A stretch of 64,000 nt of DNA, from assembly GCA_903830565.1 (NCBI GenBank), contig CAIKUF010000085.1, positions 1 through 64,000 on the forward strand. Reading direction: 5' to 3'. Origin of the DNA: an uncultured bacterium. Lineage in GTDB: Bacteria > Pseudomonadota > Gammaproteobacteria > Burkholderiales > Burkholderiaceae_C. Each line of letters starts with the position of its first letter. Position 1 is the stretch's first letter. This document shows, piece after piece, positions 4,705 through 62,359 of this stretch. Below the pieces are notes generated by a model. It did not search any database. It had not been told where the DNA came from and saw only the letters and a list, made by a program, of their open reading frames with translations. The position numbers and the translations under genes were made by a program.

Positions 4705-7199
4705 GGTGCTGTTGCCGGCCCGGCGGTCGGCGCGGCGGCGTTCAAAGCCTCGGCCGCATCCTTGGAGACCATCCGCACATGCAGGTCGCGCTGCGGCATC
4801 GGGACCTCGATGCCGGCCGCGGCCAAGCCTTCCCGGACCTTGATGGCGAGCCTGCTGCGCACCTCGACCCAGTCGGAGCGCTCTGTTGTCCACGCCCTGA
4901 GGCTGAACTCCAGCGCACCGGGCGACAGAAGCGTCAGGATCGCGAAAGGTGCGGGCGAGAACGAGACGCCATCGACCTTGCTCGCGATCTCGACCAGCAG
5001 ATCGATCGTTCGCTGCGGGTCGACGCGGTACGCCGTCGAAACCTCGATGCTGACTCTGCGCCGCGTGCCGCTGAAGGTCCAGTTCACCAGCTTGTCGGCG
5101 ACCAGCATGCCGTTCGGCACGACGACATCGGCGCCGTCGAAAGTGCGCACGATGGTGGCCCGCATGCCGATGTCGCGCACCGTGCCCGAGATCAGCGCCA
5201 CGTCGACGACGTCGCCGGGCTGGATGGGCCGCTCGAACATCAGAATCATCCCGGCAACGAAGTTCCTGACCACGTCCTGCAGGCCGAAGCCGATGCCGAC
5301 GCCTAAAGCGCCGAAGATGATCGCCAGTTGCCCGAGCTGTATGCCCGCCGCGGCGAGCGCCATCATCAGGCCCACGAACAGAATGCTGTAGTAGCTCAGC
5401 GTCGAGATGCTGTTGCCCACGCCGCGCGGTAGCGCGAGCGACGGCAACAGGTCTTCGGCGAGCAACATGCGAATCGTCTTCGCAAACCAGAACGCCAGCC
5501 AGGTCGCGATAGTGAACGACACGACCCCCCCAAGGCTGAGCGACAGCGAGCCGACCTGGAACGCGTACGTCAGCACGGACCCGAGAAAGTCGAACAGCGG
5601 GCGATAGACGCGGAAGGCCTGCAAGGTGTAGACAGCCCACACGGCGACCATCGCCGTGTGCCACAGCCTGGTCGCCAGCGGGATCAAGGTGCCCGCCCGA
5701 CGCCCGGCCATACGCGAAAGCGCTGGTTCGGAAATCACGACCTGGAGCAGCGCCACCAGCACCGTGCTGCCGGCGTACATGGCCAGGGCGACGTAGCTGC
5801 TGTCGAGAAGGGCGCCGGTGAGCATGGTCGCGAGCGAGACGTTGCCGAGGACGTTCGAGCCCACGGACGCGAGAAGCACGGCGCACGTCAGCCACAACAG
5901 AACACTGACGATCCGTTCCGTCGGCGCCAGGGCAGCTTCCGAGGCCTGGCGACGGTCGCGGATCATCCGCCAGACCAGCGTCAGCAGCATGAGCAGGTTG
6001 ATGCCCAGCAGCACACCGCGATACAAGACTTGGTTGCCTAGCATCAGGGATGCCACCGCATTGAGAAAGTAGAAAACCGCGCTCAAGTAGGCCCAGGGGC
6101 CAACGACCGTAAGCACACGCCGCTGCACCAGCGCGAGGATTGGTATCCACGCCAGCAGCATCACTGCATCCTGGCGGATATTGGGCCCCTGAATGTCGTA
6201 AAGCATCGCGCCGAGGAACACCAGCAGCAGCCATGCGGCCCACGGACGTGACAGGGCTCGCATGGAAGGCTCGGTGGCCTGCCCGGCAGCGACCAGCATC
6301 CTGGCGCGATGCCTGAGCCAGACCATGGCCGGCAACAGCAACACCAGGCCGCCCACCAGCGCGGGCAGCCAGCGCAGGTTGGCGGCGTCGTAGTCGCTCG
6401 CGAAGGCACCCTCGATGGCCAGGCTCTTGCGCAGGCCGTTGCCCGCCGACTCGCGCGTCCCGGTGTCATTCATCGCCCGCCACAGGGGCGGCGTATCGAC
6501 GATCAGCAGGCGCCTGTCCTGCTCCTCGACGTTCTCCGACACTGCGGCGATTCCGGCATGCACCTGGTGCGACAGCGCATTGCCCTTGCGAGCCGTGTCG
6601 AGCATTTTTCCGAGCGGCACTCCGACGGCCTTCTCGGCAGCTTCGATCTGGGCGATCAACTCGTCGACGCGCTCCAGCAAGGCTGGCGCCAGACCCGGCG
6701 TCAGGCGAGTCGCCTGCCAGGCCTCGCGGCGGCTGGCCAGTTGCGCCAGATCTTCGGAACTCGTGTTGATGGCTCGCGCAAGGTCGGCCCGCGTCTGCGT
6801 GATCGCCCGGTCGAACAAATGCCAGTGCCGCTGCAGGCTTTCGAGCCGGCGCACCGACAGCATGGCGAGGTCGACGTCGCCGGTCCTCTCGGCGAGATCC
6901 TTCACACCTGAGGCCTGGTCGGCCAAGGTGCGCTCGAAGTGAGAGACGCCATCCTTGGACTGGGTCCGCCTCACGATCGCGTAGACGAACTGTTCATCGG
7001 CGTCCGCGCGTGCTGGAATGTCGGCGGAGGGGATCGCCTGGACGGTCTGTTCGGGCGGCGTGGCCGCAGCGTCGCCTGTGGCAGCGAGCGCCGATGGATC
7101 GTCGGCGACCGCGCATGCGCAGGCGACGAACAGGGCCGTCGCAGCCTGCCGGGCGCCGCGTGCCAAGCCTGGCCTGCAACTCGTGAAGAGCGTTAGCAT
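4689..7199 (-). CDS. Large MscS-family mechanosensitive channel
   Basis: 836 residues. The N-terminal export signal (to about residue 40) is followed by a periplasmic, partly coiled-coil region (about 50-260). About ten membrane helices precede the MscS pore and beta domain (about 600-800). The core motif near residues 635-665 contains GVGIGFGLQDVVRNFVAGM followed by ERPIQPGDVV, the pore-lining helix and start of the cytoplasmic beta domain in MscS/MscK relatives. These large members open under membrane tension during osmotic downshift. The ATG at 7199 is chosen because the frame before it lies in the neighbouring gene and has low-complexity shadow sequence. It sits 25 bp after yihY on the same strand. 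Size and layout are closer to MscK/MscM than to small MscS. Confidence 0.8.
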   Translation of the reverse strand: MLTLFTSCRPGLARGARQAATALFVACACAVADDPSALAATGDAAATPPEQTVQAIPSADIPARADADEQFVYAIVRRTQSKDGVSHFERTLADQASGVKDLAERTGDVDLAMLSVRRLESLQRHWHLFDRAITQTRADLARAINTSSEDLAQLASRREAWQATRLTPGLAPALLERVDELIAQIEAAEKAVGVPLGKMLDTARKGNALSHQVHAGIAAVSENVEEQDRRLLIVDTPPLWRAMNDTGTRESAGNGLRKSLAIEGAFASDYDAANLRWLPALVGGLVLLLPAMVWLRHRARMLVAAGQATEPSMRALSRPWAAWLLLVFLGAMLYDIQGPNIRQDAVMLLAWIPILALVQRRVLTVVGPWAYLSAVFYFLNAVASLMLGNQVLYRGVLLGINLLMLLTLVWRMIRDRRQASEAALAPTERIVSVLLWLTCAVLLASVGSNVLGNVSLATMLTGALLDSSYVALAMYAGSTVLVALLQVVISEPALSRMAGRRAGTLIPLATRLWHTAMVAVWAVYTLQAFRVYRPLFDFLGSVLTYAFQVGSLSLSLGGVVSFTIATWLAFWFAKTIRMLLAEDLLPSLALPRGVGNSISTLSYYSILFVGLMMALAAAGIQLGQLAIIFGALGVGIGFGLQDVVRNFVAGMILMFERPIQPGDVVDVALISGTVRDIGMRATIVRTFDGADVVVPNGMLVADKLVNWTFSGTRRRVSIEVSTAYRVDPQRTIDLLVEIASKVDGVSFSPAPFAILTLLSPGALEFSLRAWTTERSDWVEVRSRLAIKVREGLAAAGIEVPMPQRDLHVRMVSKDAAEALNAAAPTAGPATAPDPAQ

Positions 7200-58802: not shown

Positions 58803-60140
58803 TCAAGGCGTGGCCTTGAGCGCCCCGGCGACGATGCCGACGAGTTCGTCGATGTGCTCCTTCTCGATGATCAGCGGCGGCGACAGCGCGATCGTGTCGC
58901 CGGTCGTGCGAATCAGCGCGCCGCGCTCCCAGCAGTGCAGGAAGGCGTCGAAGGCGCGCTTGCCCGGCTGGCCGGGGATGGGATCGAGTTCGATGCCGCC
59001 GACGAGGCCGATGTTGCGCACGTCGATCACGTTCGGCGCGCCCTTGAGCGAATGCAGCGCGTCCTCGAAGTAGGGCGCCATCGTCGCGCCGCGCGTGAGC
59101 AGGCCTTCTTCGGCATAGGTGTCGAGCGTGCCGAGCGCGGCAGCGCAGGCCAGCGGGTGGGCCGAATACGTGTAGCCGTGGAAGAATTCGATCAAGTGCT
59201 CGGGCCCGCTCATGAAGGCATCGTGTATGTGCTGGTTAGCAAAAACCGCGCCCATGGGCACGCTGCCATTGGTCAGGCCCTTGGCCACGACCATCAAGTC
59301 GGGCGTGACGCCGAAGTGCTGGCCGGCGAACGGCGAGCCTAGGCGCCCGAACCCGGTGATCACCTCGTCGAAGATCAGCAGAATGCCGTGGCGGTCGCAG
59401 ATGTCGCGCAGGCGCTGCAGGTAGCCCTTGGGCGGCAGCAGCACGCCGGTGGAGCCCGCCACCGGCTCGACGATCACCGCGGCGATCGTCGACGCGTCGT
59501 GCAGCGCGACCAGGCGTTCGAGGTCGTCCGCGAGTTCCGCACCGTACTCGGGCACGCCGCGGCTGAACGCGTTGCGGGCCAGGTCGTGCGTGTGGCGGAT
59601 GTGGTCGACGCCGGCGAGCAGCGTGCCGAACATCTTGCGGTTGGCGACGATGCCGCCGACCGAGATGCCGCCGAAGTTCACGCCGTGGTAACCGCGCTCG
59701 CGCCCGATCAAACGGGTGCGCGAGCCGTCGCCGCGCGCGCGGTGGTAGGCGATGGCCATCTTCAGCGCCGTCTCGACGGACTCCGATCCCGAGTTCGTGT
59801 AGAAGACCTTGCTCATTCCAGCCGGTGCGATCTCGATCAGACGCCGCGCCAGTTCGAAGGCCTTGGGGTGGCCCATGTTGAAGGGCGGGGCGAAGTCCAT
59901 CTCAGCGGCCTGCTGCTGGATCGCCTGCACGATCCTGGGGCGTGCGTGCCCTGCATTGACGCACCACAGGCCGGCGATGCCGTCCAGGATCTTGCGCCCT
60001 TCAGGTGTCCAGTAATGCATGCCTTCGGCGCGGGCGAGCATGCGTGGTGCCTGCTTGAATTGGCGGTTAGCCGTGAACGGCATCCAATACGCGTCGAGAG
60101 ACAGCGCGGCGTTCGTACGCAGGTCGGGGTTCTTGGTCAT
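58803..60140 (-). CDS. Omega-amino acid-pyruvate aminotransferase
   Basis: A 445-residue class-III aminotransferase. It begins DAYWMPFTANRQFKQAPRML, typical of beta-alanine-pyruvate and related omega-transaminases. PLP contacts are TNSGSESVETALK, Asp258 in IFDEVITGFGRLG and Lys287 in VAKGLTNG. Substrates could be beta-alanine, GABA, or polyamine-derived amines. The cluster favours a polyamine breakdown role. It is the first gene of the long reverse-strand block and divergent from the Lrp-type regulator across 136 bp. ATG at 60140 is preferred to an earlier codon 30 bp upstream. Confidence 0.82.
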   Translation of the reverse strand: MTKNPDLRTNAALSLDAYWMPFTANRQFKQAPRMLARAEGMHYWTPEGRKILDGIAGLWCVNAGHARPRIVQAIQQQAAEMDFAPPFNMGHPKAFELARRLIEIAPAGMSKVFYTNSGSESVETALKMAIAYHRARGDGSRTRLIGRERGYHGVNFGGISVGGIVANRKMFGTLLAGVDHIRHTHDLARNAFSRGVPEYGAELADDLERLVALHDASTIAAVIVEPVAGSTGVLLPPKGYLQRLRDICDRHGILLIFDEVITGFGRLGSPFAGQHFGVTPDLMVVAKGLTNGSVPMGAVFANQHIHDAFMSGPEHLIEFFHGYTYSAHPLACAAALGTLDTYAEEGLLTRGATMAPYFEDALHSLKGAPNVIDVRNIGLVGGIELDPIPGQPGKRAFDAFLHCWERGALIRTTGDTIALSPPLIIEKEHIDELVGIVAGALKATP

Positions 60141-60276
60141 GGCGCACTCCAATGCGAGGGTCTGCAACAAGGGCAGAGTCTATGCGCGCCGACGCGCAAT
60201 GTGCTTGCGCAATCGCTGAGGGCGAACCCCGCCCGGCGCAATATCATGCGAACAACCGGGCGACCATTGGCACGAT

Positions 60277-60756
60277 ATGCCGCGCAGACCGACCGAAGTG
60301 CACCTCGATGCGATCGACCGCGCCATCCTGCAGCAGTTGCAGCGCGATGGCCGCGTCTCCAACCTTGACCTCGCGGCACGCGTGCACTTGTCGGCATCAG
60401 CCTGCCTGCGCCGCGTGCGCCGCCTCGAAGAGAGCGGCGTCATCGCGCAGTACGTCGCCATGGTCGACCCGAAGAGCGTCGGCCAGCCCGGCACGAGTTT
60501 CACGATCGTCAATCTCGAGCGCCTGACGGCAGCGGCGATCGAGGCCTTCGAGTCGGCGGTTCGTCGGCGATCCGAAATCCTCGACTGCTTCTACGTGGCG
60601 GGCACCAGCGACTACCTGATCCGCTTCACTTACCGCGATGCCGCCGACCTGGAGCGATTCCACAGCGATGTGTTGATGCGTCTTCCAGGTGTCGTCCGCT
60701 CGAATTCGATGCTCGTGCTGCGCACGGTGAAGCGCACGACGGCGTTGCAGGTCTGA
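60277..60756 (+). CDS. Lrp/AsnC family transcriptional regulator
   Basis: 159 residues. An N-terminal HTH (residues 8-65, with ILQQLQRDGRVSNLDLAARV then SACLRRVRRLEESGVI) is followed by an AsnC_trans_reg ligand domain to the end. Such proteins form octamers and often sense an amino acid. It is divergent from the omega-aminotransferase at the head of the polyamine cluster, so it is a good candidate to regulate that cluster. The effector is not known. Aceticlastic regulation of the downstream aceA is possible but less direct. Confidence 0.88.
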   Translation: MPRRPTEVHLDAIDRAILQQLQRDGRVSNLDLAARVHLSASACLRRVRRLEESGVIAQYVAMVDPKSVGQPGTSFTIVNLERLTAAAIEAFESAVRRRSEILDCFYVAGTSDYLIRFTYRDAADLERFHSDVLMRLPGVVRSNSMLVLRTVKRTTALQV

Positions 60757-60818
60757 GCGGTTTGCGCTTCGCTGCGTAGGCGCCTATCAGCCGCCAATTT
60801 CGTGCCGTGAACTCTGCT

Positions 60819-60833
60819 TTCCGCAATGCGGAA
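60819..60833. promoter_or_regulatory. 15-bp palindrome upstream of aceA
   Basis: TTCCGCA-A-TGCGGAA has perfect 7-bp arms, in the 304-bp gap between the Lrp gene and aceA. The arms resemble operators of IclR-family regulators, but no such gene is nearby. A second small inverted repeat, GCTGC-tct-GCAGC, follows at 60843-60855. The gap has no coding signal. Confidence 0.5.
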
Positions 60834-60936
60834 TATCACAATGCTGCTCTGCAGCAAACTCTTCCATTGGGGAAAATGTCGTTCCGTATCATGGGATGCA
60901 CGCGCTAAGTCATTGATTCATATAGGACAACTATTT

Positions 60937-60960
60937 TGTCTTATATAAGACATAGGTCTT
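60937..60960. promoter_or_regulatory. Operator-like palindrome cluster upstream of aceA
   Basis: TGTCTTATATAAGACA (60937-60952) is a perfect 16-bp palindrome in a locally AT-rich patch. It overlaps AAGAC-atag-GTCTT (60947-60960), giving three regularly spaced GTCTT/AAGAC half-sites. A further half-site, TATAGGACA, lies at 60921-60929, 23 bp before the matching TATAAGACA. The site is about 100 bp before the aceA start and looks like a GntR-type operator, but the regulator is not encoded in the window. Confidence 0.6.
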
Positions 60961-61060
60961 CCCAGGCGCTTTGCTCGGGCGTAATCTGTGGTCATCGATG
61001 TTGCGCTTTTCAGCGCGGCCGCGAACCTCATTCAACCCGACCCCCGACCTAGGAGCTTTC

Positions 61061-62359
<1,299 letters not shown>

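Follow-up and report, generated by a model that had tools for sequence, protein, structure and literature searches.

Conserved palindromes upstream of the isocitrate lyase gene of a Burkholderiales bacterium as predicted operators of SdhR- and IclR-type regulators

The palindromes found upstream of aceA in the window (the whole stretch of 64 kb that was analysed) appear, from sequence comparison, to be genuine and conserved operators of known regulator families. There are good grounds to believe that at least two regulators with genes elsewhere in the genome act on this promoter, SdhR, most likely as a repressor, and an IclR-family protein, most likely as an activator, to which a PhaR-like input may be added. 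A preliminary description of this DNA had suggested at least two regulators for the glyoxylate shunt, and the presence of SdhR-type and IclR-type sites, each tracking its regulator gene, supports that suggestion. The parts are of known kinds, and the greatest interest lies in the combination of their inputs and in the way they are phased and fixed in place across many Burkholderiales. The features discussed below are the following.

60277–60756, forward strand: gene of an Lrp/AsnC-family regulator (Pfam HTH_AsnC-type and AsnC_trans_reg domains)
60798–60812, forward strand: putative IclR-type box 1, TTTCGTGCCGTGAAC, degenerate, with 3 mismatches to TTTCRYRATRYRAAA, on the 21-bp grid
60819–60833, no strand assigned: putative IclR-type box 2, the 15-bp palindrome, agreeing with the IclR group-1 consensus over the inner 15 positions
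60842–60856, no strand assigned: PhaR-like palindrome TGCTGCTCTGCAGCA, of the same type as two sites before the organism's own phasin gene
60882–60896, reverse strand: putative IclR-type box 3, TTCCGTATCATGGGA, with 1 mismatch to TTYCRYRATRYGRAA and 3 to the main pattern, on the grid
60913–60918, forward strand: conserved element TTGATT, seen on aligning 14 upstream regions; columns -25 and -24 are conserved
60924–60928, no strand assigned: AGGAC, the fourth half-site of the preliminary description, unconserved
60937–60952, no strand assigned: predicted SdhR operator core TGTCTTATATAAGACA, which matches the published motif, is conserved and tracks the SdhR gene
60956–60960, forward strand: third half-site of SdhR type, GTCTT, which overlaps the inferred -35 position
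60982–60987, forward strand: predicted -10 element TAATCT of the aceA promoter, placed by the offset of TANNNT from the start of the SdhR core
61061–62359, forward strand: aceA, encoding isocitrate lyase (NF011645, 806 bits against a cut-off of 562)

Palindromes in the aceA upstream region

The gap on the 5' side of aceA is 304 bp long and holds three palindromes. The perfect 16-bp palindrome that had been claimed at 60937–60952 is present, with arms of 8 bp, and so is the separate 15-bp palindrome at 60819–60833, TTCCGCAATGCGGAA, which is perfect with a 7+1+7 organization; the third, at 60842–60856, had been overlooked. In 2000 dinucleotide shuffles of the gap, a 16-bp palindrome arose in 19 and a palindrome with arms of at least 7 bp in 85, at least two of the latter occurring together in none, and the 64-kb window contains 26 palindromes with arms of at least 7 bp and a loop of at most 1 bp, the 16-bp and 15-bp ones included. 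Since these counts make either palindrome unremarkable when taken singly, it is conservation that gives them significance. An intrinsic terminator at 60819–60833 was rejected by eye, as at most a 4-bp stem is left with a 3-base loop. The TTGATT element lies about 25 bp on the 5' side of the SdhR core.

Genomes and loci compared

Conservation was assessed in a panel using 66 of 80 genomes, the organism's own included, and in a named set of 80 loci, the best 80 of a longer list. Genomes were left out of the panel when they had no match (G001, G012, G055, G066, G072, G075), weak matches without a full-length aceA (G041, G052, G059, G061, G062, G065, G071) or aceA at a contig edge (G049). The two sets share at least one genome (G009/L243), and L254 and L255 share an exact 80-mer. 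Among the first aceA loci, 26 of 30 were placed, with regions from their own genomes standing in for L017, L022, L027 and L030; the aceA start of L025 (G076) is not at a methionine, which makes its upstream window approximate.

A predicted SdhR-type operator next to the inferred -35 region

A literature text search with TCTTATATAAGA led to the section on SdhR in the account of the HutC subfamily in PMC4494728, where the motif of this HutC-type GntR regulator is given as TCTTATGTCTTATATAAGACATAAGA, citing Suvorova, Ravcheev and Gelfand (2012). By hand count, the window matches 22 of the 26 positions of this published motif, that is, 14/14 for the core GTCTTATATAAGAC and 8/12 for the outer symmetry positions. 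The core is thus identical to that of the published operator, whereas the outer half-sites are only partly kept and weaker, and the third half-site of the window is an inverted GTCTT. Also common to the SdhR system described there and to ours are a regulator gene located by the sdh genes and a like site before the regulator gene in relatives.

The preliminary description had tied its reading to the conservation of the palindromes upstream of aceA in related species. The 16-bp core, allowing at most two mismatches, is indeed kept before aceA in 47/66 panel genomes (0.3% of shuffled upstreams) and in 67/80 named loci, the best 80 of the longer list (0% of shuffled upstreams). Searched with the 14-bp core at no more than two mismatches, the whole assembly gives the aceA site and no other. 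A second core lies 29–30 bp away in 24 of the 114 core-bearing upstreams, the window having a single one. Three evenly spaced half-sites had been reported, and in the window GTCTT (60938–60942), AAGAC (60947–60951) and GTCTT (60956–60960) do start 9 bp apart; the third, however, is exact in only 14 of the 114 upstreams, 12/54 in the window's own lineage, as defined below by box spacing, and 0/46 in the other, so that it characterizes some close relatives only. Likewise, the AGGAC proposed as a fourth half-site has one mismatch and lies 23 bp on the 5' side of AAGAC, but no conserved sequence occurs at its position among the 114 regions, and it was rejected as a conserved element.

The assembly (4.1 Mb, 339 contigs, 97.75% complete) yielded one UTRA-domain protein of HutC type, which carries GntR and UTRA domains. 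Its gene immediately precedes sdhC, sdhD and sdhA and runs divergently from mdh, the identity of these four neighbours being confirmed. Residues 99–259 match 3cnv (2.6e-58), a solved chain named 'Putative GntR-family transcriptional regulator', and this structure could aid the finding of a ligand for SdhR. The presence of the operator follows that of the regulator: with an SdhR match of at least 280 bits, the aceA core is found in 46/48 panel genomes (the exceptions being G057 and G069), with 210–280 bits in 1/8 (G015, whose SdhR match is split in two pieces), and below 210 bits or without SdhR in 0/10 (Fisher p = 1e-12 for the 280-bit split). Furthermore, among the 67 genomes with an SdhR match, the sdhR promoters of the 30 best loci were read, and 29 have a like site with at most two mismatches. 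The exception is the organism's own genome, where only a degenerate site with 3 mismatches, GTCTTGCATCAGAC, is found. The GntR-like label, which had been given to the 16-bp site from resemblance, is therefore well placed, as the site equals the core of the SdhR motif in PMC4494728 and tracks the SdhR gene. On this basis, 60937–60952 is very probably the docking site of the TCA-cycle regulator SdhR. Among the papers listed by the literature search, no report of an SdhR site at aceA was seen, which is not proof of novelty, as the 2012 source paper on SdhR lay outside that search.

A few observations on SdhR-type sites elsewhere are worth recording. In the organism's own sdhR/mdh intergenic region (L042, about 5840–5895), there are several GTCTK/AGAC half-sites, and the full operator is degenerate, unlike in relatives. 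Sites of this type precede the gene of a monomeric NADP isocitrate dehydrogenase (TIGR00178) in L319 (about 1525), L322 (about 1570) and L324 (about 1459), where the stretch retrieved truncates the proteins, so that they score below the whole-protein cut-off of the TIGR00178 model; this enzyme competes with AceA for isocitrate. Others, among them several CTCTTATATAAGAG, are near argD, an acetylornithine-type aminotransferase gene, in L320, L323, L327, L328 and L332 (neighbour confirmed for L323 and L332, by eye for the other three), and the one in L332 is also near an etfB-like gene.

IclR-type boxes on a 21-bp grid

The IclR group-1 consensus is given as GKTYCRYW3-4RYGRAMC in PMC8222616, and by eye the inner 15 positions of 60819–60833 fit it, with the outermost G/C pair lost. 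In the alignment of 14 upstream regions, elements resembling TTTCACGATACGAAA occupy three slots, and in some relatives TTTCACGATACGAAA itself stands in the slot of box 1. When a box is defined as TTTCRYRATRYRAAA within 2 mismatches, the 114 core-bearing upstreams contain 242 boxes against 1.9 expected, or 239 in 112 upstreams once two near-duplicates are removed. The slot of box 2, 118–120 bp from the SdhR core, holds a box in 38/114 upstreams and that of box 3, at 55–56 bp, in 33/114.

The boxes are phased, 224 of the 242 being within 1 bp of the 21-bp grid of their lineage. Their distances to the SdhR core split the 114 upstreams into a first lineage of 54, to which the window belongs (mainly 56, 77, 119 and 140 bp), and a second of 47 (mainly 62, 104, 125, 146, 168 and 188 bp), with 0 in both and 13 in neither; since the observed slots themselves served to define the two lineages, the split is a descriptive one, a choice that does not affect the histogram of distances or the -10 offsets. 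The 13 regions lacking a box at any grid slot include those of G009, G033 and G036, in which an IclR gene is present. The -10 element behaves in the same way: TANNNT starts at +44/+45 from the start of the SdhR core in 53 of the 54 first-lineage upstreams and at +38/+39 in 21 of the 47 of the second, 26 of which have none at the four offsets tested, while offsets 40–43 and 46–51 are used in 0 or 1 of 90 single-site upstreams. The lineage shift is thus 6 bp for boxes and -10 alike, which indicates that the boxes keep the register of the promoter wherever a -10 can be named.

In the window itself the boxes are weak (3, 2 and 3 mismatches), and the motif emerges only once relatives define the pattern: genome-wide, the exact 15-bp palindrome is in no clear excess over its reversed control (37 and 36 against 35 and 25). 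Among the papers listed by the literature search, no report of a 21-bp grid of boxes was seen, and this is again not proof of novelty.

An IclR-family protein that follows the boxes

One IclR_C protein was found in the genome (gene at L159:1252–2019), and it has a single match in each of 57/80 genomes at 1e-30. In the promoter of its gene, TTTCGCGATGCAAAA is found at 44 bp before the start. From the 57 genomes with a match, the 30 best loci were taken and 29 of them placed; a box with at most three mismatches precedes the IclR gene in 26 of the 29 (2.7% in shuffles), in each case with a box no farther than 60 bp from the assumed start. The exact pattern has 30 matches in 48 genomes, its reversed control 6; by comparison of coordinates, 7 of the 30 are at iclR, 4 at aceA and 19 elsewhere. 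In G000 the sole match is the iclR promoter, and in G011 the two matches are aceA and iclR.

Across the panel, a box with at most two mismatches precedes aceA in 43 of 46 genomes with an IclR match of at least 300 bits and in 6 of 20 below that score (G020 and G023 have boxes and no IclR match). The two regulator systems appear separable, as G025 and G064 have IclR and box without SdhR or its site, whereas G037 and G067 have SdhR and its site without a box, their IclR match being weak or absent. Crossed pairs associate as well, IclR with the SdhR site at p = 4e-9 and SdhR with the box at p = 0.002; regulators and sites co-vary with phylogeny, so that the Fisher values overstate independence.

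The docking site formed by the boxes very probably belongs to an IclR-type activator. The IclR-like label originally attached to the 15-bp site from resemblance has held up, the site fitting the consensus reported in PMC8222616 and tracking a conserved, apparently autoregulated IclR gene.

Two IclR-family proteins are reported to raise aceA expression in Burkholderiales. QsmR of B. glumae is described in PMC5347341 as directly controlling and activating both aceA and glcB, and in a bapR mutant of B. cenocepacia aceA was down 3.1-fold, an effect for which PMC3962473 leaves open whether it is direct or indirect. By analogy with these proteins, the IclR protein of the window's genome most likely activates aceA, although the quorum-sensing link of QsmR and BapR would not be expected for it. 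The E. coli IclR, repressor of aceBAK, belongs to the same family and acts in the same pathway; it differs in that it represses, whereas activation is expected here, and in that its motif, given as TGGAAATNATTTCCA in PMC8222616, is unlike the boxes of the window. Our protein fails the E. coli IclR model NF008601 (96.4 bits, cut-off 380).

Proposed regulation of the aceA promoter

With the predicted -10 element at 60982–60987, transcription would start near 60994. SdhR, encoded before sdhCDA, would bind 60937–60952 next to the -35 region, perhaps using the third half-site as well in the window's lineage, and would set isocitrate lyase together with succinate dehydrogenase. Repression is the most likely outcome: the third half-site of the window overlaps the -35 position, which suggests that SdhR represses, even though few relatives keep this half-site. 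HutC-type regulators are, moreover, mostly repressors. The opposite sign, SdhR activating aceA, strikes us as rather unlikely, even if several features suit it: the centre of the operator core is near -50 from the inferred start, a position also used by activators, the spacing from core to -10 is nearly constant within each lineage, and the half-site over the -35 is kept in few relatives. The general behaviour of the HutC type and the overlap seen in the window itself lead us to prefer repression.

The IclR protein, for its part, would bind the boxes at 60798, 60819 and 60882, which are phased by multiples of 21 bp and so lie on one face of the DNA. Their location upstream and on one face suits activation of aceA, in line with QsmR and BapR. 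We tentatively extend this reading, as a conjecture that may well prove wrong, more broadly: the aceA promoter of many Burkholderiales would be an array of IclR-type boxes on a 21-bp (two-turn) grid set by the -10, with lineage-specific slots, the SdhR site being shifted by 6 bp relative to the -10 between two lineages and the boxes staying in register with it. Several IclR dimers on one face of the DNA would then form a higher-order assembly acting with RNA polymerase, a phased activation platform into which SdhR and a sensor of polyhydroxybutyrate are inserted.

A PhaR-like element between the boxes

The overlooked palindrome at 60842–60856 may possibly belong to a storage-polymer regulator. 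It resembles the TGCTGC...GCAGCA palindromes presented in PMC12542648 for PhaR/AniA, which acts in polyhydroxybutyrate storage, and the aceA site TGCTCTGCA differs from the YGCRNYGCR given there at one core position. With at most two mismatches, TGCTGCRNYGCAGCA is found before aceA in 29/66 panel upstreams (0.15% in shuffles), exactly so in G015 and G032, and in 19/80 named upstreams, the best 80 of the longer list (1.25% in shuffles). Two TGCTGC-type sites accompany the organism's own phasin gene, at L235 1863 and 1922, and are taken as upstream with the start placed by eye at about 1811, an alternative ORF start at 1878 putting the first site inside the gene. In S. meliloti, according to PMC12542648, PhaR influences the amounts of citrate synthase and of an isocitrate lyase family protein. 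The PhaR-like assignment is suggestive; a site in this position, between the boxes, may add the polyhydroxybutyrate status to the control of aceA.

An alternative is that 60819–60833 is itself a PhaR site, forming a tandem pair with 60842–60856, and that aceA answers mainly to polyhydroxybutyrate. In its favour, CGCAATGCG fits YGCRNYGCR, and there is a resemblance between this stretch and the S. meliloti site GTTTTCCGCAATGCAGCAATT, reported in PMC12542648 to be bound efficiently by PhaR; the sites at the phasin gene also speak for this reading. Relatives, however, fill the same slot with boxes such as TTTCATGATGTGAAA and TTTCGTAATGCGAAA, with TTTC...GAAA ends, and these share the 21-bp grid with the other IclR-type boxes, whereas the TGCTGC element stands alone, 40 of its 48 matches in core-bearing upstreams being 95–98 bp from the SdhR core. 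We thus judge the PhaR reading of 60819–60833 improbable and retain that of an IclR-type box.

The neighbouring Lrp/AsnC gene

The preliminary description stated that no regulator was nearby, which is wrong as worded, since the Lrp/AsnC-family gene ends just before the region. Its proximity, together with the fact that Lrp-type proteins often regulate their neighbours, raises the question of whether its product reads the aceA palindromes. By tblastn, this protein is matched beside aceA in only 9/110 loci (within flanks of 1.5–3 kb, shortened by contig ends in some cases), 6 of the 9 matches having at least 67% identity, the own locus and a 70-residue fragment included, whereas conservation of the palindromes extends much further; the protein is therefore probably not the regulator of aceA, and we rejected this candidate as very improbable. 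The divergent aminotransferase gene is its more likely target. ORF translations read by eye place the Lrp/AsnC gene and an aminotransferase-like gene divergent from it at 58803–60756, adjoining a series of genes whose translations resemble those of glutamine synthetase and amine metabolism genes.

Finally, we give next to no probability to the idea that the palindromes arose by chance and do not serve regulation: their conservation, their constant spacing and their presence together with particular regulators outweigh the 26 palindromes of comparable arms in the window, and the retention of the 16-bp site in relatives in effect refutes this idea for that site.

Significance for carbon allocation in Burkholderiales

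Isocitrate lyase decides the fate of acetyl-CoA carbon, which is either burned or kept, and Burkholderiales that make polyhydroxybutyrate, such as Cupriavidus, are used industrially. With two named regulators and their likely boxes, the control of this branch point becomes directly testable in laboratory strains. The IclR-type box is a candidate binding motif for aceA activators such as QsmR and BapR, and the aceA promoters of relatives would constitute a natural series on how IclR proteins use multiple phased boxes.
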